NCBI GenBank assembly: GCA_016845105.1 | Contig: JAERTF010000051.1 | Location: 52,590 to 116,589 of the forward strand | DNA length: 64,000 nt | Source: Bacteroidota bacterium | GTDB lineage: Bacteria > Bacteroidota > Bacteroidia > Bacteroidales > F082 | Direction: 5' to 3' | Shown: positions 16,401 to 30,842 of the stretch, in pieces | Layout: each line of letters starts with the position of its first letter | Numbering within the stretch: the stretch's first letter is position 1 | Position numbers and translations under genes: made by a program | The notes under the pieces: generated by a model | Database searches by the model: none | The model's input: only the letters and a program-made list of their open reading frames with translations | Told to the model about the DNA's origin: nothing

Positions 16401-16490
16401 AAACCCATTCCTATCATCTCTTTTCCCCTAGTTTTTATAAGCTATTGCTATTTGGTAGTCTTATTACTAAAACTTCAGTGTTCATTTTTC

Positions 16491-16570
16491 ACAGTAGGGG
16501 TAAAGCCATAGTTAGCTGTCATATATATAGGCTATTGTTTTTCAACAAGAACTATTTAAACCTTCAACCC
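16491..16570 (+). promoter_or_regulatory. Duplicated leader, copy 1 (before 1472-residue T9SS protein)
   Basis: From acagtaggggtaaa to the ATG this segment is close to 90 percent identical to 21109-21188, which precedes the paralogous gene. It contains atagttagctgt (16508-16519), a degenerate form of the perfect palindrome in copy 2, and tcatatatataggctattg. It is probably promoter plus 5' leader. No clean TAnnTTTG is seen. Confidence 0.65.
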
Positions 16571-19500
16571 ATGAAACAAGCTGCTACAATTATTTTTCTG
16601 CTGCTTACGCAGATTTCCTTAGGCGCAATTTTTGAATTTAACTTTTCAACTAACTCATTGGATAATGTTCAAATTCAGGATGGGGTTGTTGGTACAGGCC
16701 AAATTTATGGCACTGTAACCGATACTATTTCGGGAGATTCATTGTTCGGTGTATCTGTTACAACAGGAGCTAATACCACCCAAACAGATACCAACGGTTA
16801 TTATGAGCTCATTTTGGATGAAGGCAGTTATGATTTGCTTTTCAGTTTTTTAGGCTATGAAAGCAGGGTGATAAGCACCGTTGTAGTTTCAGGTTCTGTA
16901 TCTGAGGAAAGTGCTAATTTGTATGTTGTTGCCAATCCGGTACCATGGGTAATTGCTGATGTTAATGCTGCAGAAACAGAGTGTTTGGTATCATGGAGTG
17001 AGCCCCAGGGAACTTATATGATACTGTATGATGATGATGAAGTAGATAATCACTTGATTTGGACAATTCCCGGAAATGCAGTTGGTGTTCGTTTTTCACC
17101 CAAAGGGTATCCTGCTACTGTAACTGGAGGAAGTTTAAATGTAGGTGATGGTAGTTTCCCCACCGGAGCTAACTTTATAGGTACACTGTTTGCTATTGGT
17201 ATTTTTGATGATGATGGCGTAAATGGCCTCCCCGGTACAGTCCTTGATTCGGTTTTGGTTGAAGTAGTTAATTATAATTGGGTAGATTTTTATGATGTTT
17301 TTAACAACACGTTTTATGATGGTGACTTTTATATTGTTATGTGGCAATTGGGTGTTGAAACCAATTCTGCACCCATAGCCATCGATACAGATTTAACTTC
17401 TTTTTATAATTCAGTTACCTTACAACAGGGAGCAGGTTGGGCTGAATCACCTAACCAAAATTTTATGATTAGAGCCTATGTTAATGGTGTTTATTACACA
17501 AATAATTCACCATATTATTGGTACACTTACTACACCATAGCAAGAGTAAGCAATTTTGATCCCTTGGTAGGACCGGAATCAGGCGTATTAACTCCAATAG
17601 CAAACCCTTCAAATGAGATATTTGGCGATCATGCATTTGGTGGACAGGCCCCTGGATTCTATGCTTATGCCGTAAGAGCTGTATATCCCCATGCAAGTTC
17701 ATTCTTGACCTTTTCGAATATTGTACATCGTGGAATAGATAATACCGTTACTTTTGAGTTAACCCATTGTATGGATGACCTACCAGAAGGCATTGAGGTA
17801 ACACTTATTGGATTTGATTACCCTTTTGAAGTTTTTTCTGCAATATCTGATGCCAGTGGAATTGTAGTATTTAATGATGTAGTTGATGGTAGTTATTACC
17901 TAAGGGCATATAAGCCAGGATTTGAGCCTTACGAAGATTTTGATTTACAGATTTATGATGATTTATTCTATAATATTATGCTTACCGGATTAGTGCTTCC
18001 TCCTCAAAATCTGGAGGTTGATCCACTAACATCTATAGCAACATGGGATGATCCAACTATTATAAAACTACAAACAGAAGATTTCGAAGGAGCAGTATTC
18101 CCACCTGATGGTTGGCAATCATCATCATTGGGTATTGGATGGTATTCAACTGATAATGGTAGTTCGGCCAACTGGATTATCCCTCCGGGAGATGGTTATT
18201 ACGCATTGTCAAATGATGATGATGCAGGAGCCACAAATGATGGGAGTAGTGATTATCTTATTACACCTTTATTGGATTTAACAGATTGTATTTCGTATCA
18301 AATTAAATTTGATTATTTCTTCGATGCGACAAATAGTGAAAGAGCATATTTTGAATATAGCCTTGATACAGGAACTACATGGATACTTGTGGATTCATTG
18401 GTTTCGGTTTCGGAATGGACATTGGATTCAGTGGACTTAACTTTTCTGTCCGGGCCAGGATCAACACCGGTATTGTTGGCTTTTCATGCAGACGATAACG
18501 GAGGATTGGCATCTGGATTGGCAATTGATAATGTGGGAGTTATAAATTTTCCACTTTCATTAATTGGTTATTATTTATATCTGGATGGTAGTTTTATCGC
18601 TCAGGTTCCGTCAACTATAAGGACATACACTTTTGTAGATTTATCTTATGGTCAAACATACGAGGCAAGCGTTAGAACACTTAGAGAATGCGGATTGTCT
18701 GATCCTAGTAATTATTTTATCTGGGAATCCACATACTTGCATCCGCCCCGCAACTTGGTCGATGATTATGTTTATGGAATGGACTCAATTCCAATTATGT
18801 GGAATCCACCGCTGACCGGAACAATTCCAATGGCAGCGGCATTTAACATTGTTTATGTTGGCCCTCAAAAACAAGATGTAAGTTCAACCATGGATGCTGC
18901 AAAAGAGGTTACAATTATTGAGTTTGAAAATAAGAGTAATAGATATATGGGTGATCTTCAATTTTCATTTCCCACTTTAATGGGAGGTGGTGAAGCTGGT
19001 TGTGAAACCGATGGTGAGTTTATTTATACAGTAATGCCCAATCAATTTATTAAGTATGATATTGATGGCTTTTTAATCGAAAGCTTCTCCATTGCCGGAG
19101 TTTCTGATGTTAAGGATTTAGCGTATGATGGTGAATTTTTCTATGGAGCTGCAGCCAACACTACGGTTTTTGTAATGGATTTTACCACGCAATTATTGGT
19201 TACAACATTTACTGCGCCCACTGATGTTCGTGCAATTGCCTATAATGTAGATGATGAAACTTTTTTCACAAATAACTGGGGAACAGATATTGTAAACTTT
19301 GATGCATCGGGAAATAATTTGGGATCGTTTACCCCAAGCGTAACAGCAATTTATGGATTGGCATACGATAAGTGGTCGATACAAGGAGTGCAAAGTATTT
19401 GGGCATACGATCAAGGAGAAAATAATTTAATACAGTTTGCTTTACCAAGTGGTGAACCAACGGGCTTTGTTATTGATGTTGAATGCCAAACATGCTCCAC

Positions 19501-20989
19501 AGGATTAGCAGGAGGATTATTTACATATCCCGGTTTATATGAAGATGGAAAAGTAACCATTGGAGGTGCTGCACAGGATGAAATAGTTTGGGGTATCGAC
19601 CTGGCAGATTATAGTGTAAGTGGATTGATTCCGGATGGTTTAACATCCTTTAATTTATACTTAAATAATACCTTTATGGGAGATGTACCCTATGCTAACC
19701 AAGCTGCAAACGAGTTCTTAACTCATATTTTTGAGCCATTGGATCCGGGATCGTATTATTATTGTGTAAGTGCAGTTTATGAACTTACCAGTTATGGTTT
19801 TCCTGGCGATTATAGTGAATCACAATGGATATGCGGAGACTCCGTTCATTTGGTTTGGGGATCAATAATACCATATACTGAAAACTGGAGTAGCGGAACC
19901 TTTCAAGGCTGGACCTTAAACAACAACTCAGAAAACTGGCTTATAAATTCACATGAAGGAGAGCCCGCACCATCAGCACAATTTTCATGGGAACCCATAC
20001 TCGAAAATGATTACTCTTCTACGCTTACAAGTGAGCCAATTGTTGTTGATTCAATAACCGAAGGAGATATTTTTCTTGATTTTGATCTTAAACTAGTTGA
20101 TGTAAATTCAACGGGCGAAGAGAAATTATTGGTAGAAATATACAATGGAACAGAGTGGTCTCAGGTTGCCGAATTTGCAAATAATGGAAAATCAGGGTTT
20201 ACTACAAATCACATAAATATCTCAAACTACTGCCTAGGAAGCACAACAAAGGTTAGGTTTAATGTAACCGGACAAAACTCATCAGATATAGAATCATGGT
20301 TTTTGGATAATATAAGCATAACCCGACAATGTAGTTCTCCAACAAACCTCATGGGTGAATATATTTGGAATAATAATGATGATATGGGAGTGGAACTCTG
20401 CTGGAATAGTCCGGATACAACAGGAAAAAGTCTTGGTAGTTTTGGAAATAATGAAATGCAAATCGACTTTAATAATAGAAGTAGAGAAATGGAAGGTTTT
20501 AATATTTATCGAATGCATATGGATTCAACAAATTATGCATTGTATGATATAGTGCCATTACAGCCAGGACAGTCTTCCTATTGCTATTATGATGAAATTC
20601 CAAATACAAGTATACATACAGGATACTACTATCAGGTAACGGCTAGTTATTCAGGCGAATTTGATAATTGTGAGTCGGCTCCTGCCAATTCGTTGGAGAT
20701 TCCGGATAATGATTTTGTATATGTATTTGTAACTGGTATTGAGAACAAAGTTGAAGCAAACCCAATAAGAGTTTATCCCAATCCCACACATAATGTACTC
20801 AATGTAAGTTCCAATGGAACAATTTATAGCATTACCCTTATCAACAACATTGGTCAGGTTGTGTACTATAATAATGGTATTAATGAGTTGGATATTAAAC
20901 TTAATACTGGCTTGTATGAAACGGGTGTATATCTTATTAAAGTTGAAACAGAAAAAGGAATATCACTACAAAAAGTAATTGTTAAATAG
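16571..20989 (+). CDS. Giant modular T9SS surface protein (paralogue 1)
   Basis: Start set at ATG 16571, which begins a signal peptide (MKQAATIIFLLLTQISLG); the tracked start 42 codons earlier translates the conserved leader. The product has 1472 residues. In order: carboxypeptidase-regulatory-like domain (about 43-115, GTVTDTISGDSLFGV, NGYYELIL); a sheet domain with YDDDEVDNHLIWTIPGNA; FN3-like repeats; a choice-of-anchor/MAM-like domain (about 500-660, EDFEGAVFPPDGWQ); FN3 interrupted by a propeller-like module (about 765-1020); a second anchor-like domain (about 1100-1255); FN3; and a T9SS type A sorting domain (about 1395-1472, VYPNPTHNVLNV, GVYLIKVETEKG). No catalytic site is seen; an adhesin or matrix role is inferred. 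It is paralogous to the next gene. Confidence 0.85.
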   Translation: MKQAATIIFLLLTQISLGAIFEFNFSTNSLDNVQIQDGVVGTGQIYGTVTDTISGDSLFGVSVTTGANTTQTDTNGYYELILDEGSYDLLFSFLGYESRVISTVVVSGSVSEESANLYVVANPVPWVIADVNAAETECLVSWSEPQGTYMILYDDDEVDNHLIWTIPGNAVGVRFSPKGYPATVTGGSLNVGDGSFPTGANFIGTLFAIGIFDDDGVNGLPGTVLDSVLVEVVNYNWVDFYDVFNNTFYDGDFYIVMWQLGVETNSAPIAIDTDLTSFYNSVTLQQGAGWAESPNQNFMIRAYVNGVYYTNNSPYYWYTYYTIARVSNFDPLVGPESGVLTPIANPSNEIFGDHAFGGQAPGFYAYAVRAVYPHASSFLTFSNIVHRGIDNTVTFELTHCMDDLPEGIEVTLIGFDYPFEVFSAISDASGIVVFNDVVDGSYYLRAYKPGFEPYEDFDLQIYDDLFYNIMLTGLVLPPQNLEVDPLTSIATWDDPTIIKLQTEDFEGAVFPPDGWQSSSLGIGWYSTDNGSSANWIIPPGDGYYALSNDDDAGATNDGSSDYLITPLLDLTDCISYQIKFDYFFDATNSERAYFEYSLDTGTTWILVDSLVSVSEWTLDSVDLTFLSGPGSTPVLLAFHADDNGGLASGLAIDNVGVINFPLSLIGYYLYLDGSFIAQVPSTIRTYTFVDLSYGQTYEASVRTLRECGLSDPSNYFIWESTYLHPPRNLVDDYVYGMDSIPIMWNPPLTGTIPMAAAFNIVYVGPQKQDVSSTMDAAKEVTIIEFENKSNRYMGDLQFSFPTLMGGGEAGCETDGEFIYTVMPNQFIKYDIDGFLIESFSIAGVSDVKDLAYDGEFFYGAAANTTVFVMDFTTQLLVTTFTAPTDVRAIAYNVDDETFFTNNWGTDIVNFDASGNNLGSFTPSVTAIYGLAYDKWSIQGVQSIWAYDQGENNLIQFALPSGEPTGFVIDVECQTCSTGLAGGLFTYPGLYEDGKVTIGGAAQDEIVWGIDLADYSVSGLIPDGLTSFNLYLNNTFMGDVPYANQAANEFLTHIFEPLDPGSYYYCVSAVYELTSYGFPGDYSESQWICGDSVHLVWGSIIPYTENWSSGTFQGWTLNNNSENWLINSHEGEPAPSAQFSWEPILENDYSSTLTSEPIVVDSITEGDIFLDFDLKLVDVNSTGEEKLLVEIYNGTEWSQVAEFANNGKSGFTTNHINISNYCLGSTTKVRFNVTGQNSSDIESWFLDNISITRQCSSPTNLMGEYIWNNNDDMGVELCWNSPDTTGKSLGSFGNNEMQIDFNNRSREMEGFNIYRMHMDSTNYALYDIVPLQPGQSSYCYYDEIPNTSIHTGYYYQVTASYSGEFDNCESAPANSLEIPDNDFVYVFVTGIENKVEANPIRVYPNPTHNVLNVSSNGTIYSITLINNIGQVVYYNNGINELDIKLNTGLYETGVYLIKVETEKGISLQKVIVK

Positions 20990-21108: not shown

Positions 21109-21188
21109 ACAGTAGGGGTAAATCCACAGTTAACTGTCATATATATAAGCTATTGTTTTCAGCAAGAACTATTTCAACCCTCAGACCC
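21109..21188 (+). promoter_or_regulatory. Duplicated leader, copy 2, with 12-bp palindrome
   Basis: Second copy of the leader at 16491-16570. It includes the perfect palindrome acagttaactgt at 21126-21137, followed by catatatataagctattg and ending at the ATG. Conservation of non-coding sequence up to both start codons suggests shared control. Confidence 0.65.
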
Positions 21189-24100
21189 ATGAAAAAAATT
21201 GCTACTATAATTCTCATGCTACAATTCCTGTTAACATCAGGTATATTATTGAGCAATTCAATTACTAAGATTAACGATAAACTGACCCTCAGTCAATATG
21301 GTAATATTGAAGGAACTGTTGTTAATGGAGATGGATTTTCAATTGCCAATGTGCTAGTTGGTATTGATGGTATAACACAAACTACCACTAGCTCAACGGG
21401 GTATTATATTCTTGAGAATATACCTGTAGGTCAAAATATTGTAGTTTGTTTAAAGGAGGGATATAATACAGCAGTGGACTCAATAATCGTCATTCAGGAC
21501 GATACACTTAACCTTGATTTTTCATTAACCCAACCCAATATAACTGTTGCCCCCACTTTATTTTCTGTTACTCTGAATCCAAACGAATATTTAACCCAAT
21601 ATATGAGCCTGCTAAATACCGGTGATGGCGAAGGTGAGTGGGCAGCAGTTATAAATTATCTATCAAAAACTCCCTCATATAAGGTGCAGAAATTGGAATC
21701 AAGCAAGACTCGTGATTTTAGCATAATCGAAACTAATCCCAAAAATGTGGTTACTATACCCCAGGGTAATGGACAGCCACTTAGTGCTCGATCTGGTTTT
21801 AATTGCCCGGTTGGCAGTGTGTTTTCATATCCTCCTCTGGCTTCCGATAATGCATACAGTTGTGAAGAGAATGCAGGAACAATGTGCTATCAAAGTTTTT
21901 CGGGAGTATCAGGTGGGTTCTCAACAATTACAATTTATGCTTTGCATACTACTCTTCCATCGGGTCCGCGGGAGCTATTGGTTGAGGTTTATGAATCGGG
22001 AAGTACTCCAGGTGCACTTGAAAGCTCATCAATAGTTATGGCTGACCCCATTGGAACAGGAATTCCAGTGTTGGGCTATCAAACATTCTCCTACACATTC
22101 GACGTTCCTGTTTCAAGTTTATCATCGGGGTGGATTGGAATTCAAGCCACCTCAGGCGGAAGCCCAACTTTTTACTGGCTTAATACACATTATACTCCTG
22201 CTTACACAGCAATGCAAAACAATACTGTTCTTTATGATGGATTGGCCATGTGTCTAGCCTCAAATGAAGAAAACTGGTTAACCCTTGAGGAGTATGAGGG
22301 TGTAGTGCTTCCCTATGGAGGAATACAAAATATAGGTGTTAATTTTGATGCCTCCGGAATGGAGGATGGAGATGTTCATACTGCAGAAATTATAATTACA
22401 ACTGATCCGAATGTTGGAACATTCACCATACCCGTTAACATGTTAGTTGCCGGTGATCCACTTTGTCCTGTTTATGATCTTGGGGTTGAGCTGGTTAATA
22501 TGGTTACCAGTCAAGTTGGTATATACTGGATGTTTGATTTTGCATCATGCTCTTCTAATTTTCAATATTTTATAGTAAAAAGAGATGGGGTAACAATAGG
22601 AACAACAACTGATATTTATTACGATGATATGCTTCCTAATTATGGAACATATTGTTATACAGTTATTCCTGTTTTTGATATTGGTCAGGGTATAGGAGCC
22701 ACAACCTGTGTTGAATGGGAAATTCCAGCTTATTGTTGGAGTCCCAATACAGTTTATAATGAACAATGGGTTAATTCTCAGGAACAAGTAGATATTACAA
22801 TAGAGAATTGTGGTTTGGGGGTGCTTGATTTTATTTTTCCCGACCACCTTTCGGGGAGTAGGTTTGCTTGTGATATGGAGGTAGCGCTTTATGATACATA
22901 TGGTGATGGCTGGAATGGTGGTAGCCTCGATGTATTTGTTAATGGAAACTTGATTCTTGATGACCTTACAATTGTAAATGGTGGTGGTCCAGAGTATCAT
23001 TCGTTTCCAGTTGAAGGAGGTGATGACATTAGTACAATATACACTGCAGGAAGTTGGTCGTACGAAAACTATTATGAGTTTTATGATGGAGATGGAATTT
23101 TAATATATACTGCAGCAGATGAAAGTATTCCTGTTGGAGTTGTTTTTGGAACCTGTCCTCAACCGGGTTTTATCTTGGACGTTGAACCACCGATGGGACA
23201 AATTCAGGGAGGACAATCGATGAATATATCAGTAACTTATGATGCTACAGGATTTCCCAATGGGTTATTTAACGAGTGGTTATTAATTGAAACAAATGAT
23301 CCTCAACACCAGGAAGACAGTATCTTAAATCAAATGCTGGTTTATGATCCTGGCTTATTCTATGGTTATGTTAATAACTGTAGCACGGGATTACCAATTC
23401 CAGGTGTGACTGTAATTGCCGGGGATAATAGTGCTACAACTAATGGTATGGGTTATTACGAAATGTACGTTGATGCGGATACTTATGATATTGAATTCAG
23501 TTTTCTGGGCTTTGAAAGTCAGGTTTTTGTTGGCGGAACTGTTTCTGCCGGTGGGATGACTGAAATTAGTATTTGTTTGAACGAAACACCATATCCGGTG
23601 AGTTGGGTATTTGCTGAACCCGATGAGGTTGCAGGTACTTGTTTGGTTACATGGAGTTTACCCATGGGTCCATACGAAATTATATATGATGATGGCTATT
23701 CAAATGAATTTGTAATATGGACAACCCCCGGGAATGCCATTGCTGTAAATTTCACACCTGCTGGATATCCCGCAACAATAATAGGAGGTAGGTTCTTTGT
23801 TGGAGATGGAACTTTCCCTTCGGGTTCAACATTTTTAGGCACATCAATGGGTGTTGGCGTTATGGATGATGATGGAGTTAATGGAATGCCAGGAACAATA
23901 CTCGATTCAACAGTTATAACAATAAATAATTTGGAGTGGGTTGATTTTTATGGATTGTTTAGTGATACAATTAACGATGGTAATTTTTACATTGTACTTT
24001 GGCAATTGGGCTATTCGAGTTTTTCGGCACCCATTGGTGTTGACACAGATGCGCCCACAGTTTACAGGTCATATGTTAAGTTTGACAATAATCCTTGGTC

Positions 24101-27100
24101 AGTATCACCTTATCAGGATTTTATGATTAGAGCTTATGTTGATGGTCCAAATGATGGAGTAATGAGCAGTAGTTCAGGTAGTAAAGCATCCCCAAAACTA
24201 ATCCAACTACCAAAGGTCACAGAAGGTCCGTTTATAGCTACCGGTTTACCAGATGGTATTGATGGAACTGAAAAGGATGGAGAATACAGATCAATAATAG
24301 AATCAAAAGATACAAGAGACTTATTAAATTACACTGTTGCAAAGGTTACTGATTTCGATCCTGTATTGGGACCGCAAACAGGAATATTAACCCCAATTGC
24401 TAACCCAACAAATTACCCATATCTCGACCAAAGCTGGGGTGGATTACCACCTGGATATTATGCATATGCAGTAAAAGTAGTTTACGATGCCAACGAATCA
24501 ATTTGGGTTTATTCAAATACTGTACCCCATTTATTATATAATACAGTTACTGTAGTTGTTTACTCATGTAATGACAGTATTGAAAATTCTAATGTTTACT
24601 TAATTGGTTATGATTACCCATATGAAGTACATCAAGGCACAACTAATACTAATGGAATTGTAGTTTTCGATAGTGTTATTGATGGATATTATGATATGCA
24701 TGTTGAAGGGGTTGGTTATACACTTTATGAATATGGATATAATATATATAGTGACACAACAATTGGGGTTGAGTTGTTACAAAACATGTATCCACCTACA
24801 AACCTGGAGGTTGATCCTCTAACTTCCGTTGCCACATGGGATGAACCACTTATAACAGAACTTTATCTTGAGGATTTTGAAGATCCTACGTTTCCACCAG
24901 ATGGATGGCAGGCAACGGCAATTGATGTAGGATGGTTTAGAACCGAAGATGCCAGCTCGGGAAATTGGCCAGTTCCACCCGGGGATGGTTACTATGCCTC
25001 CACGAATGATGATGTCTTGGGTACAGGTTACGGTAATAGCACAATGGATTATTTAATAACTCCGCAGGTTGATTTACGGGAGAGCGATGATTTTCAACTT
25101 TATTTTACCCAGTTCTATGATGGATCATATGGGCAGAGTGCCTATGTTGAATATAGTAATGATCAGGGAACGACGTGGGAGGTTATTGAAACCATGTCAC
25201 CACAAGGTGATTGGAATAATAAAATAGTAGATTTGGCTCCAATATCAGGACCCAATAGTGTGCCAGTAATGCTGGCATTTCATTCTGATGATCATAATAG
25301 CTGGGCTTCTGGTTGGGCAGTTGATAATGTTGAGATTAAAAATGGCCCTGCTCCCGTTCTTGCGTATTATGTGTTTTTAGATAATGTGTTTGAAGCACAA
25401 ACAGGATGGAACGAAACAACCTATACTTTTACCGATCTAACATATGGTGTTCCTTATGAGACATGTGTTGTTGCTGTGTACGATTGTGGTGTTAGTGATC
25501 CGGTTTGTACAACCTGGGAGTCAATTTTCTTACTTCCACCTTTAAATCTTACCAATGAATATCTATACAATACAAACGAAGTTCCATTAATGTGGAATCC
25601 ACCCGAGGGTAACACAGGAGTGCCTGATGAGCTTGTTTCGTTTAACATTTACAGAGATAGTGTGGTTATTGCCAATGTTGCCTATGGTGGTCAAGGTATA
25701 GGAGAGTGGATAACTTTCATTGACAACGAATTGGATCCAAATACCTATAATTATTGGGTGTCGGCCGTTTATGATTTAGCTGATTTTGGTTACCCCGGAG
25801 AAACTGCTGAATCTGTATGGGAAGGTCCCGATGAAGTAAGTGTGGTTTGGGGATTTACCATACCATTTTTTGAAGACTGGGGAGTTGGAACCTTTGCATT
25901 CAATAATTGGACATTTAACGAGAATTCAGATAACTGGTCGATTAGCTCTCAAGAAGGAGAACCTGCTCCATCAGCAGAATTTACATGGGATCCACTATTG
26001 GAAAATGATTATTCATCAACGCTTACGAGTTACCCAATTATTGTTGATTATTTAACCGAAGGAGATCTATTTCTAGATTTTGATATAAAGTTAATCGATA
26101 GAAATTCCACAGGCAATGAAAAAATGTTGGTTGAAATATATGATGGTACAATATGGCATCTTGCTGCTGAATTTGCAAATTCCGGTAAAGAAGGATTTAC
26201 AAATAACCTTATAAATATTACACAATATGCAATTGGAAATGCCATTAATATTCGTTTTAATGCTACGGGACAAAATTCGTTCGATATAATTTCATGGTAT
26301 ATTGATAATGTTAATGTTTATCGGGAGTGTGTAGCTCCAACGGATTTAACTGGTCAATACATCTGGATATCACCCACCGAAATTGGTGCTGAGATCTGTT
26401 GGGAAGGTTATATTGCACCATCTAGTTCTCAATGGTTCTACTATGATGATGAAACAATAGAGTATGTATGGGGAAGTACTTCTGACTGGGATGTAGATAT
26501 TGCAATCAAAATTGAACAAGATGACCTAATTAACTTTGATGGAGCCGCAATTACACAATACCGTGCATTTGTAGACAGTAGGTTGTTGGGTGTTGGAACA
26601 ATATCTGTTAAGGTATACCAAGGTGATAACCCAAATCCATCAGCACCAATCTATGAAGAGGACGTAACTAGTCAGTTTATTGCAGGTGATGATTGGAATG
26701 ACTTTATGTTTAGTCAGGCAGTACTGATTGATATCAATCAGCCATTATGGATGGGTATGTATTTCACAGGCCCAGATGACACATATGGTCCTGGAATCAC
26801 TTCACAAATGGATTCATATGATCCAAACGGAGATCTATTATGGAATGCAGGCTCATGGGATCACATACAAAATCAAGGAATTAGTAACCGTGCATGGCTA
26901 TTAAGAGGTTTTGTTACTACATCTTATGGGTCAACAGTAGCTATAGGGAGCACAAATATTAATCCTTTACCTGTTCAAACAGGATTAAGCACAGTTGGTA
27001 CATTTGTATCAACCCATGCAAGTCTAAGTACATTAGAGGTTAATAACACACGTTCAGAGGTTACATTTAACATATATCGTAAAGGTGGAGCTAGCGATTA

Positions 27101-27557
27101 TGTATTATTAGCTATAGTACCAAGTGAATCAGGTACAGGCTCATATTGCTACTACGATACAGATGTTTTTTACCCCACAGAGTATTGTTACAAGGTTACA
27201 GCATCTTACGAGAGTGCTACGGATTATTGTGAATCAGCTCCAGCCAATGCATATGAATTACCAATGAATGACCATGTTTGTGTTTTTAATAGCCCCATTA
27301 ATGTTGATAATCCAAATGAGGCTACTTTAATTAATGTATATCCAAATCCGGCAACCGATGAAGTGCATATAAATTCTACACTTCCTATTCAAAACATTAA
27401 TGTTGTCAACTACTTTGGACAAAGTGTTTATACAAGTGAAACAAGCAATTCTAGTTCCCATAAACTGAATACCACTTTATATTCTTCAGGAATATATCTT
27501 ATTCAGATAGAAACCGATATGGGAATAACAACAAGAAAAGTGATTATCAAAAGATAA
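21189..27557 (+). CDS. Giant modular T9SS surface protein (paralogue 2)
   Basis: Start set at ATG 21189 (signal MKKIATIILMLQFLLTSG). The 2122-residue product shares the backbone of paralogue 1 but has about 700 extra N-terminal residues. In order: carboxypeptidase-regulatory-like domain (about 30-110); a long region containing a DTYGDGWNGG module (about 570-670); a second regulatory-like domain (about 724-800, NGMGYYEMYVDADTYDIEF); the YDDGYSNEFVIWTTPGNA domain; FN3; an anchor-like domain (about 1227-1395, EDFEDPTFPPDGWQ); FN3; a second anchor-like domain (about 1560-1715); a terminal FN3 split by a module of about 200 residues (YDDETIEYVWGSTSDW); and a T9SS sorting domain (about 2045-2122, VYPNPATDEVHINS). 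No enzymatic motif is seen. A good terminator follows. Confidence 0.85.
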   Translation: MKKIATIILMLQFLLTSGILLSNSITKINDKLTLSQYGNIEGTVVNGDGFSIANVLVGIDGITQTTTSSTGYYILENIPVGQNIVVCLKEGYNTAVDSIIVIQDDTLNLDFSLTQPNITVAPTLFSVTLNPNEYLTQYMSLLNTGDGEGEWAAVINYLSKTPSYKVQKLESSKTRDFSIIETNPKNVVTIPQGNGQPLSARSGFNCPVGSVFSYPPLASDNAYSCEENAGTMCYQSFSGVSGGFSTITIYALHTTLPSGPRELLVEVYESGSTPGALESSSIVMADPIGTGIPVLGYQTFSYTFDVPVSSLSSGWIGIQATSGGSPTFYWLNTHYTPAYTAMQNNTVLYDGLAMCLASNEENWLTLEEYEGVVLPYGGIQNIGVNFDASGMEDGDVHTAEIIITTDPNVGTFTIPVNMLVAGDPLCPVYDLGVELVNMVTSQVGIYWMFDFASCSSNFQYFIVKRDGVTIGTTTDIYYDDMLPNYGTYCYTVIPVFDIGQGIGATTCVEWEIPAYCWSPNTVYNEQWVNSQEQVDITIENCGLGVLDFIFPDHLSGSRFACDMEVALYDTYGDGWNGGSLDVFVNGNLILDDLTIVNGGGPEYHSFPVEGGDDISTIYTAGSWSYENYYEFYDGDGILIYTAADESIPVGVVFGTCPQPGFILDVEPPMGQIQGGQSMNISVTYDATGFPNGLFNEWLLIETNDPQHQEDSILNQMLVYDPGLFYGYVNNCSTGLPIPGVTVIAGDNSATTNGMGYYEMYVDADTYDIEFSFLGFESQVFVGGTVSAGGMTEISICLNETPYPVSWVFAEPDEVAGTCLVTWSLPMGPYEIIYDDGYSNEFVIWTTPGNAIAVNFTPAGYPATIIGGRFFVGDGTFPSGSTFLGTSMGVGVMDDDGVNGMPGTILDSTVITINNLEWVDFYGLFSDTINDGNFYIVLWQLGYSSFSAPIGVDTDAPTVYRSYVKFDNNPWSVSPYQDFMIRAYVDGPNDGVMSSSSGSKASPKLIQLPKVTEGPFIATGLPDGIDGTEKDGEYRSIIESKDTRDLLNYTVAKVTDFDPVLGPQTGILTPIANPTNYPYLDQSWGGLPPGYYAYAVKVVYDANESIWVYSNTVPHLLYNTVTVVVYSCNDSIENSNVYLIGYDYPYEVHQGTTNTNGIVVFDSVIDGYYDMHVEGVGYTLYEYGYNIYSDTTIGVELLQNMYPPTNLEVDPLTSVATWDEPLITELYLEDFEDPTFPPDGWQATAIDVGWFRTEDASSGNWPVPPGDGYYASTNDDVLGTGYGNSTMDYLITPQVDLRESDDFQLYFTQFYDGSYGQSAYVEYSNDQGTTWEVIETMSPQGDWNNKIVDLAPISGPNSVPVMLAFHSDDHNSWASGWAVDNVEIKNGPAPVLAYYVFLDNVFEAQTGWNETTYTFTDLTYGVPYETCVVAVYDCGVSDPVCTTWESIFLLPPLNLTNEYLYNTNEVPLMWNPPEGNTGVPDELVSFNIYRDSVVIANVAYGGQGIGEWITFIDNELDPNTYNYWVSAVYDLADFGYPGETAESVWEGPDEVSVVWGFTIPFFEDWGVGTFAFNNWTFNENSDNWSISSQEGEPAPSAEFTWDPLLENDYSSTLTSYPIIVDYLTEGDLFLDFDIKLIDRNSTGNEKMLVEIYDGTIWHLAAEFANSGKEGFTNNLINITQYAIGNAINIRFNATGQNSFDIISWYIDNVNVYRECVAPTDLTGQYIWISPTEIGAEICWEGYIAPSSSQWFYYDDETIEYVWGSTSDWDVDIAIKIEQDDLINFDGAAITQYRAFVDSRLLGVGTISVKVYQGDNPNPSAPIYEEDVTSQFIAGDDWNDFMFSQAVLIDINQPLWMGMYFTGPDDTYGPGITSQMDSYDPNGDLLWNAGSWDHIQNQGISNRAWLLRGFVTTSYGSTVAIGSTNINPLPVQTGLSTVGTFVSTHASLSTLEVNNTRSEVTFNIYRKGGASDYVLLAIVPSESGTGSYCYYDTDVFYPTEYCYKVTASYESATDYCESAPANAYELPMNDHVCVFNSPINVDNPNEATLINVYPNPATDEVHINSTLPIQNINVVNYFGQSVYTSETSNSSSHKLNTTLYSSGIYLIQIETDMGITTRKVIIKR

Positions 27558-27758: not shown

Positions 27759-28622
27759 ATGAAAAATGTAATCTTTTTATTGTTAGCGCTTCCATTTTTG
27801 TTAAGCTGCAATTCTAACAACACAAAAACTGAAGATTCAGATACAAATAAGCAATCTACATCAGTCAATAAAGCCGAAGGAGCCTCACCAATGTTAACCT
27901 ATACTTTGAGTGATAAAAATAGTGATGGAAAAAAGCTTGAGAGTGAAGCTGGTGAAGTAGTGCCTGTTGAACAACTTGAGTCAAAAAATAATAATCAAAA
28001 TAAAAAAAATGTCCTTAATGAAGAGGAAGATGATGATCTTAAAAGAAGAAGAGCTCACACACAGTTTAAAAATGGAACATCATTCTATAAACAAGGAGAA
28101 TTGGAGAAGGCAATTGAATCTTTCAAGAATTCATTGGAGTTGAAACCTAATAATTCAAGGGCTTTTTACAACCTTGGTAATATATATTATGAACTCGGAC
28201 AAAAAGATCTGGCCAAATCTTATTATATTGATGCAGTTGAGATTGAGCCAAGCGATTCACTTTCGCTAATTGCAATTGGACTAATTTGTACTGAGAATGG
28301 TGATTTACCTGAAGCATTGGATTATTATAATAAAGCGGTTGCTGTGGCACCAACTTTTAGTATGGTTTACTTCAACAGAGGGACATTGTTGGGACAAAAT
28401 AAACAGTATGAAGAATCATTGAACGACTTGTCGAAAGCAATCAAATATGACCCCAAAAACTCTGAAGCATACATTAATAGAGGTCTTGCTCATTTTTATA
28501 TGAAAAATATTGAGCTGGCATGTCAGGATTGGCAAAAGGCCAAGTCGATGGGAAATCCAAAAGGTAAGCAGGCGGTTGATATTTATTGTTCAGGGAAACC
28601 GGTATCTCAACCAAAAAAATAA
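27759..28622 (+). CDS. TPR-repeat lipoprotein
   Basis: A 287-residue lipoprotein: signal MKNVIFLLLALPFLLSC with Cys17, a polar low-complexity linker (about 18-97, Asn, Lys and Glu rich) and then tetratricopeptide repeats (about 98-285; FYKQGELEKAIESFKNSLELKPN, AFYNLGNIYYELGQKDLAKSYY and similar). TPR lipoproteins usually scaffold envelope complexes; the partner is unknown. It is the last plus-strand gene of the block between atpB and atpC, and is convergent with atpC. Confidence 0.85.
   Translation: MKNVIFLLLALPFLLSCNSNNTKTEDSDTNKQSTSVNKAEGASPMLTYTLSDKNSDGKKLESEAGEVVPVEQLESKNNNQNKKNVLNEEEDDDLKRRRAHTQFKNGTSFYKQGELEKAIESFKNSLELKPNNSRAFYNLGNIYYELGQKDLAKSYYIDAVEIEPSDSLSLIAIGLICTENGDLPEALDYYNKAVAVAPTFSMVYFNRGTLLGQNKQYEESLNDLSKAIKYDPKNSEAYINRGLAHFYMKNIELACQDWQKAKSMGNPKGKQAVDIYCSGKPVSQPKK

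Positions 28623-29327: not shown

Positions 29328-30842
<1,515 letters not shown>

Follow-up and report, generated by a model that had tools for sequence, protein, structure and literature searches.

The FN3 BC loop as a probable socket for exchangeable domains in large T9SS-exported proteins of Bacteroidales

The stretch of 64,000 nucleotides analysed here, referred to as the window, carries tandem paralogous genes for two large T9SS cargo proteins, p1 and p2 (Table 1), and the last FN3 domain of p2 is interrupted by a long segment where p1 has only a short loop. This raises the question of whether one loop of the FN3 fold is a recurrent landing site for modules and a possible route to diversification, as a first-pass annotation of the sequence had proposed, and how the contents of such a loop come to differ between related proteins. 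Both p1 and p2 carry a C-terminal T9SS type A sorting domain (TIGR04183 / PF18962, detected with Pfam and NCBIfam), and the N-terminus of p2 (MKKIATIILMLQFLLTSG) looks by eye like a putative signal peptide. The gene pair is conserved, since in another species of the genus (L192, G001:C64) both orthologues are found close together on one contig. The genome of the window's own organism (4.5 Mb) holds at least 150 T9SS sorting-domain matches above cut-off. On the 3' side of p2 lie a TPR-repeat lipoprotein gene (27759-28622) and, beyond it on the minus strand, a stretch that reads as F1 ATP synthase beta subunit (29328-30836); no mobile-element context was seen by eye around these downstream genes.

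The homology between p1 and p2 detected by blastp ends exactly at ICW (p2 aa 1750, p1 aa 1320) and restarts at NNTRSEV in p2 (1964) and NNRSREM in p1 (1344). The p2 segment between ICWEG and VTFNIYRKG, first estimated at about 200 residues, measures 217 (aa 1753-1969, window 26409-27059) and contains the peptides quoted at that time (26442-26489 and 26550-26591), and the equivalent place in p1, put at about 30 residues, holds 26-27. The FN3 before the last (FN3-d) presents the reversed case, with an insert of 274 residues in p1 and only 7 residues in p2. The p1 module there again directly precedes FNLY/FNIY, in agreement with the earlier statement that both insertions fall just before this strand. 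Altogether, six of the nine FN3 domains of p1 and p2 have a module after the W..P of the B-strand and before the C-strand, among them FN3-c of p2, where it sits between TWDEP and YYVFLDN.

An AlphaFold2 (AF2) model of p2 aa 1728-2036, computed with 18 aligned homologues (mean pLDDT 77), shows, in order, FN3 strands A-B, an all-beta domain of jelly-roll-like shape modelled with confidence (JR), a disordered linker of 42 residues and strands C-G, from which it follows that JR is nested in the FN3 BC loop. In the model the host comprises strands A and B and, past the insert, C, C', E, F and G, and its C-half matches the PDB Fn3-like protein 3mpc (E 8e-4). The host departs from a contiguous FN3 of ~85 residues by its 217-residue interruption and, judged by its predicted fold, remains an FN3 of a nested-host variant. 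Pfam fn3 stays under the cut-off for the whole p1 and p2 proteins (18.7 and 22.0 against 25 bits), which is consistent with split and diverged domains.

JR gave no match above cut-off in Pfam or NCBIfam, with the insert alone or with its 18 relatives, and no match at the sequence level in PDB. Choice_anch_J (NF038128) / Reelin_subrepeat-B is another jelly-roll, seated in the BC loop of a neighbouring p2 FN3, and was rejected as an identity for JR, which matches neither family above cut-off in the insert or in any of the 18 relatives. The choice_anch_J match itself was reported in p2 only and not for the p1 FN3-c module. Foldseek, queried with two domains (insert and host), returned weak matches to PHR (3gbw), the Kex2 P-domain, CBM and MAM (E 1e-4 to 1e-2, low TM-scores), and the model, an all-beta sandwich, is best described as jelly-roll-like. 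JR was present in 73 of 149 related genomes, the named relatives being mostly metagenome-assembled genomes of Bacteroidales and Lentimicrobiaceae. An FN3 C-half follows JR in 85 of the 101 copies found in relatives, and three or four more look alike but are truncated or divergent.

The p1 FN3-d insert is predicted to be a beta-propeller, with Foldseek matches to WD40 and designed 7-bladed propellers at E about 1e-8 and 1496 matches at or below 1e-3. Its AF2 model is confident in the middle only, and because the model is poor outside this part the nesting of the propeller in FN3 is deduced from sequence. The polar tracts NNRSREMEG and FENKSNRYMG, which had been remarked on at the same place, turned out to be ordinary linkers; the latter belongs to the linker that leads into the p1 propeller at its N-terminal side. 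The short p1 loop was also considered as a relic of a lost JR linker and this found no support, since the loop does no better than its own shuffles, about half of which score equally high.

Table 1. Positions of p1, p2 and their FN3 loop contents in the window, with other JR and propeller 2 acceptors in relatives
Feature	Position	Strand	Evidence or remark
p1 (paralogue 1)	ORF 16445-20989	+	1514 aa
p1 FN3-b BC loop with YDDG-type jelly-roll, aa 188-362	17006..17530	+	p1/p2 blastp
p1 FN3-c BC loop, module homologous to the p2 choice-of-anchor-J one	18056..18562	+	p1/p2 alignment
p1 FN3-d BC loop with predicted beta-propeller (propeller 1), 274 aa, aa 790-1063	18812..19633	+	Sequence comparison; Foldseek
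p1 last FN3 BC loop, no module, 27 aa, aa 1324-1350	20414..20494	+	blastp
p2 (paralogue 2)	ORF 21153-27557	+	2134 aa
p2 FN3-b BC loop with another YDDG-type jelly-roll, aa 838-1056	23664..24320	+	Flanks VTWSLP, NYTVAKV
p2 FN3-c BC loop with choice-of-anchor-J jelly-roll, aa 1233-1402	24849..25358	+	NCBIfam choice_anch_J, Pfam Reelin_subrepeat-B
p2 FN3-d BC loop, no module (EGNTGVP)	25605..25625	+	p1 and relatives: propellers or JR here
p2 last FN3, strands A-B (APTDLTGQ...EICW)	26334..26402	+	blastp boundary with p1; AF2 strands E3-13, E16-24
JR cassette, predicted jelly-roll in BC loop, aa 1759-1922	26427..26918	+	Profile of relatives' homologues; AF2 pLDDT mostly 75-94
Polar linker, module to strand C, aa 1923-1969	26919..27059	+	AF2 pLDDT <50, model residues 199-240
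p2 last FN3, strands C-G (VTFNIYRKG...CESAPANAYELP)	27060..27263	+	p1 alignment resumes; AF2 strands E242-300
p2 T9SS type A sorting domain (Por_Secre_tail / TIGR04183)	27336..27551	+	Pfam and NCBIfam above cut-off
JR in carboxypeptidase-regulatory-like domain loop	L109 (protein m0_1987, aa 1106-1254); L116 (p1_1071, aa 992-1138)		
BACON/ASH-like acceptors, before WL..SG	JR: L212, L209, L222, L204, L224, L186; propeller 2: L109, L233, L238		

The position of interruptions in FN3 domains was surveyed in four sets of proteins: T9SS cargo of the own genome picked by sorting domain (set A), proteins of relatives picked by JR similarity (set B), order-level cargo picked by sorting domain (set C) and family-level proteins picked by a profile of the FN3 C-half whose query came for the most part from interrupted domains (set D). 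The survey is dominated by one family-level group, with some members of its order besides. The FN3 profile was trained on the collected proteins and ends at strand F, the scan covering the loops before FG. As a control, artificial 200-aa inserts were placed at ten positions between strands A and F, and at every one of these 31 of 31 were recovered. The real proteins gave about 360 significant FN3 signals, comprising 86 intact domains, 253 C-halves starting near strand C and 21 N-halves; sets B and D favour interrupted domains, which biases this interrupted share and, to a lesser degree, the position. Sets A and C are free of such selection bias and contributed only 5 FN3 signals, too few to inform.

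Essentially every non-intact signal breaks at the B-C boundary, and an interruption at any other scanned position (strands A-F) was not confirmed. N-terminal fragments were considered as a sign of inserts in other loops and rejected, as those inspected proved to be BC cases that stop at the B strand with the alignment entering a module, one of them cut by its sequence end. Likewise, 83 hits starting at model positions 10-17 were examined as AB-loop insertions and discarded; the B-strand aromatic was present in only 14, and by eye these were contiguous FN3s or chance alignments. A search for N-halves upstream of the C-halves yielded 132 N/C pairs against about 2 expected by chance from shuffles, 118 of them with a gap of at least 100 residues, and left 121 of the 253 C-halves without an N-half above threshold. 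As far as alignments can tell, inserts are confined to the BC loop among the scanned positions and are not evenly spread, all those found lying between strands B and C.

That all survivors are in one loop would also be expected from structural permissiveness alone, with BC as the sole FN3 loop to tolerate a domain without loss of the fold or a block of T9SS export, and survival bias doing the rest. The many unrelated modules tolerated in BC and their disordered linkers fit this reading. So do engineered FN3 (monobody) libraries, in which BC is among the loops used for binding surfaces, loop length was selected and extended BC loops were very rare among binders (2%), which shows that lengthening has a cost (PMC4575168). 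The likeness to monobodies is that BC, diversified there together with DE and FG, is variable in an otherwise conserved FN3 (PMC4575168); the difference is that monobody loops vary by few residues and the natural inserts described here are whole domains of 150-290 aa. Permissiveness by itself gives no account of the repeated cassette replacement at orthologous sites described below, and as a complete explanation we hold it to be possible, if rather doubtful. It is compatible with a socket that receives exchangeable cassettes and would then explain why this loop is used; BC was probably chosen for structural reasons.

The BC-loop inserts fall into some 14 clusters and belong to at least five module groups with no profile similarity to one another, which bears out the idea of a recurrent landing site already suggested by p1 and p2. 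Profile comparison places JR beside a related group and tells apart from these a second group of YDDG-type, choice-of-anchor-J-like jelly-rolls, beta-propellers, a ConA-like domain (Pfam 3keto-disac_hyd) and a further group. The YDDG-type module of p2 FN3-b has counterparts of the same type in relatives (cluster c9). In cluster c3, two different modules stand in tandem in some BC loops (418-466 residues), as in protein p1_1669 of L107 (aa 1921-2340). Other acceptors were found as well: seven of the 101 JR copies reside in BACON/ASH-like domains, ahead of a WL..SG motif, two in a carboxypeptidase-regulatory-like domain as a third acceptor, and propeller 2 likewise occurs at the BACON/ASH-like position. 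By these counts the FN3 BC loop is the main acceptor, with others beside it. In the N-terminal part of p2 (about 21530-22430 and 22750-23330), two BACON/ASH-like domains look, on inspection by eye, as if modules interrupt them ahead of a WL or similar motif, which would make them a second kind of socket.

The contents of orthologous loops were compared at two sites. Site 1, the FN3 marked by PPrNl..YvYNTNEvPLmWnPP / vPdGLlSFNlY, carries propeller 1, propeller 2 or JR in some relatives and, in others, just a short polar loop or nothing at all, and on a host tree built from 29 flank rows with the insert left out the cassette state changes at least nine times, at least five of these changes being among filled loops alone. 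The closest comparison is offered by two genes of one genome (L111 and L109_m1, the G012 pair), which share 87% and 94% DNA identity up to both loop edges and are wholly different in between, with propeller 2 in one and JR in the other; the propeller 2 of this pair is 73% identical in DNA to a copy borne by a BACON/ASH-like domain in a paralogue of the same genome. L234 is without the propeller of its relative L240, yet has kept its N-terminal linker. At site 2, the last FN3 (n=36), JR occupies 28 loops and another jelly-roll one, and seven are empty, that of p1 included, with at least six changes of state. Since JR fills 28 of these 36 loops, it is the commonest content at this position, and its presence in p2 is no novelty of paralogue 2; the module, described earlier as a different one in p2, differs in this sense from the loop of p1. 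The finding that orthologous FN3s hold different modules in the same loop supports the proposed route of diversification.

A fixed ancient architecture, in which one old nesting was followed by vertical inheritance and occasional loss with no ongoing exchange, agrees with the JR majority at the last FN3, with most empty loops resembling losses and with a p1/p2 pair and a propeller common to the genus. Near-identical hosts of one genome with unrelated modules, and the scatter of propeller 1, propeller 2 and JR on the site-1 host tree, speak against it, as does the history of p2 set out below, and we consider it unlikely. More improbable still is an artefact of assembly or binning by which chimeric contigs fused paralogues at conserved FN3 DNA. 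Similar paralogous DNA of this kind is a known cause of misjoins, and the genomes are mostly fragmented assemblies, apparently from metagenomes where the key cases are concerned; against this, dozens of independent genomes have reading frames that cross both borders without a stop, and any given module type is met again in the same socket in several genomes. The sequence comparisons are probably best explained by gain, loss and replacement of cassettes at a given socket.

The last FN3 of p2 is itself a mosaic. Upstream of this domain, p2 is 77% identical to G007 and about 75% identical to G003 and G001, all of the same genus. The same host flank has 53% identity to G031, from another genus, and JR is 70-72% identical to G031 (70% over the domain) and 32-34% identical to the same-genus G007 (32% over the domain); the counterparts of this FN3 in G003 and G001 hold no JR. 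DNA matches show the same switch between host and module in p2, and a single clade of the JR modules of the genus was rejected (log-likelihood difference 201, p-AU 7.6e-45). As the p2 JR groups with another genus, against its host, and the flanks show the reverse, the history of the cassette differs from that of the host. This incongruence could in part reflect old duplicated modules that were sorted differently.

Taken together, we find it likely that the BC loop acts as a socket for exchangeable cassettes and that JR is one such cassette, nested in an FN3 of a large T9SS-exported protein. The location of JR, its confinement with the other inserts to one loop among the scanned positions, the variety of modules, the differences between orthologous sockets and the mosaic of p2 are read from the sequence analysis. 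Strands A-B and C-G would form conserved plug ends, the loop between them taking up whole domains tethered by flexible polar linkers; in this arrangement the FN3 fold would remain and the module would be presented sideways from the fibre. Direct repeats or target-site duplications at the module borders were searched for, following the suggestion that short direct repeats might mark them, and none was found, nor was an integrase or mobile-element gene seen there; for this reason the mechanism of exchange is one that we infer. The simplest route would be homologous recombination or gene conversion, between paralogues or following interspecies transfer, because the FN3 halves and the neighbouring domains give long homology on both sides and may act as recombination arms. 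The benefit may be that adhesin-like proteins, on the surface or secreted, acquire altered binding properties; the module types and the secretion signal point to a role in adhesion or glycan binding. It is an evenly balanced proposition that this extends to a general system in Bacteroidales giant T9SS cargo, in which the FN3 BC loop and the WL loop of BACON/ASH-like domains are standard acceptors and binding modules from a common pool (JR, propellers and others) move between them, within a genome and from one genome to another, by recombination of the conserved host halves, surface binding being rebuilt on an unaltered scaffold.

Tandem jelly-roll or adhesin domains and FN3-type domains are found in other T9SS cargo with a C-terminal sorting domain, such as gingipain haemagglutinins with their cleaved adhesin domains. 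Such cargo and p1/p2 are alike in being secreted multi-module proteins with a sorting domain and jelly-rolls, but the jelly-rolls stand in line in gingipain-type cargo and are nested within FN3 in p1 and p2. Some domain families consistently host inserted domains, according to a large survey of domain insertion (PMC13114784), and the likeness to the nested insertions reported there is that one domain interrupts the sequence of another. In contrast to those cases, here many unrelated guests enter a single loop in one host family and are swapped among close relatives; a text search of PMC13114784 gave no mention of fibronectin/FN3, immunoglobulin or Bacteroidetes hosts in its main text. In the open-access literature searched, no description was found of T9SS cargo in which FN3 loops serve as module sockets or jelly-rolls are nested within FN3, an absence that is not proof of novelty.

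If true, these observations provide a natural rule for where FN3 scaffolds gain and swap whole domains. Annotation pipelines would miss such FN3 domains because they are split by inserts, and JR would be an undescribed jelly-roll family, present in roughly half of the related genomes that were searched. Engineers of display scaffolds may find in the BC loop an insertion site that nature already uses. For the bacteria themselves, the socket would account for the diversification of their giant secreted proteins, and suggests a natural re-tooling of cell-surface proteins by the swapping of domains in one loop.
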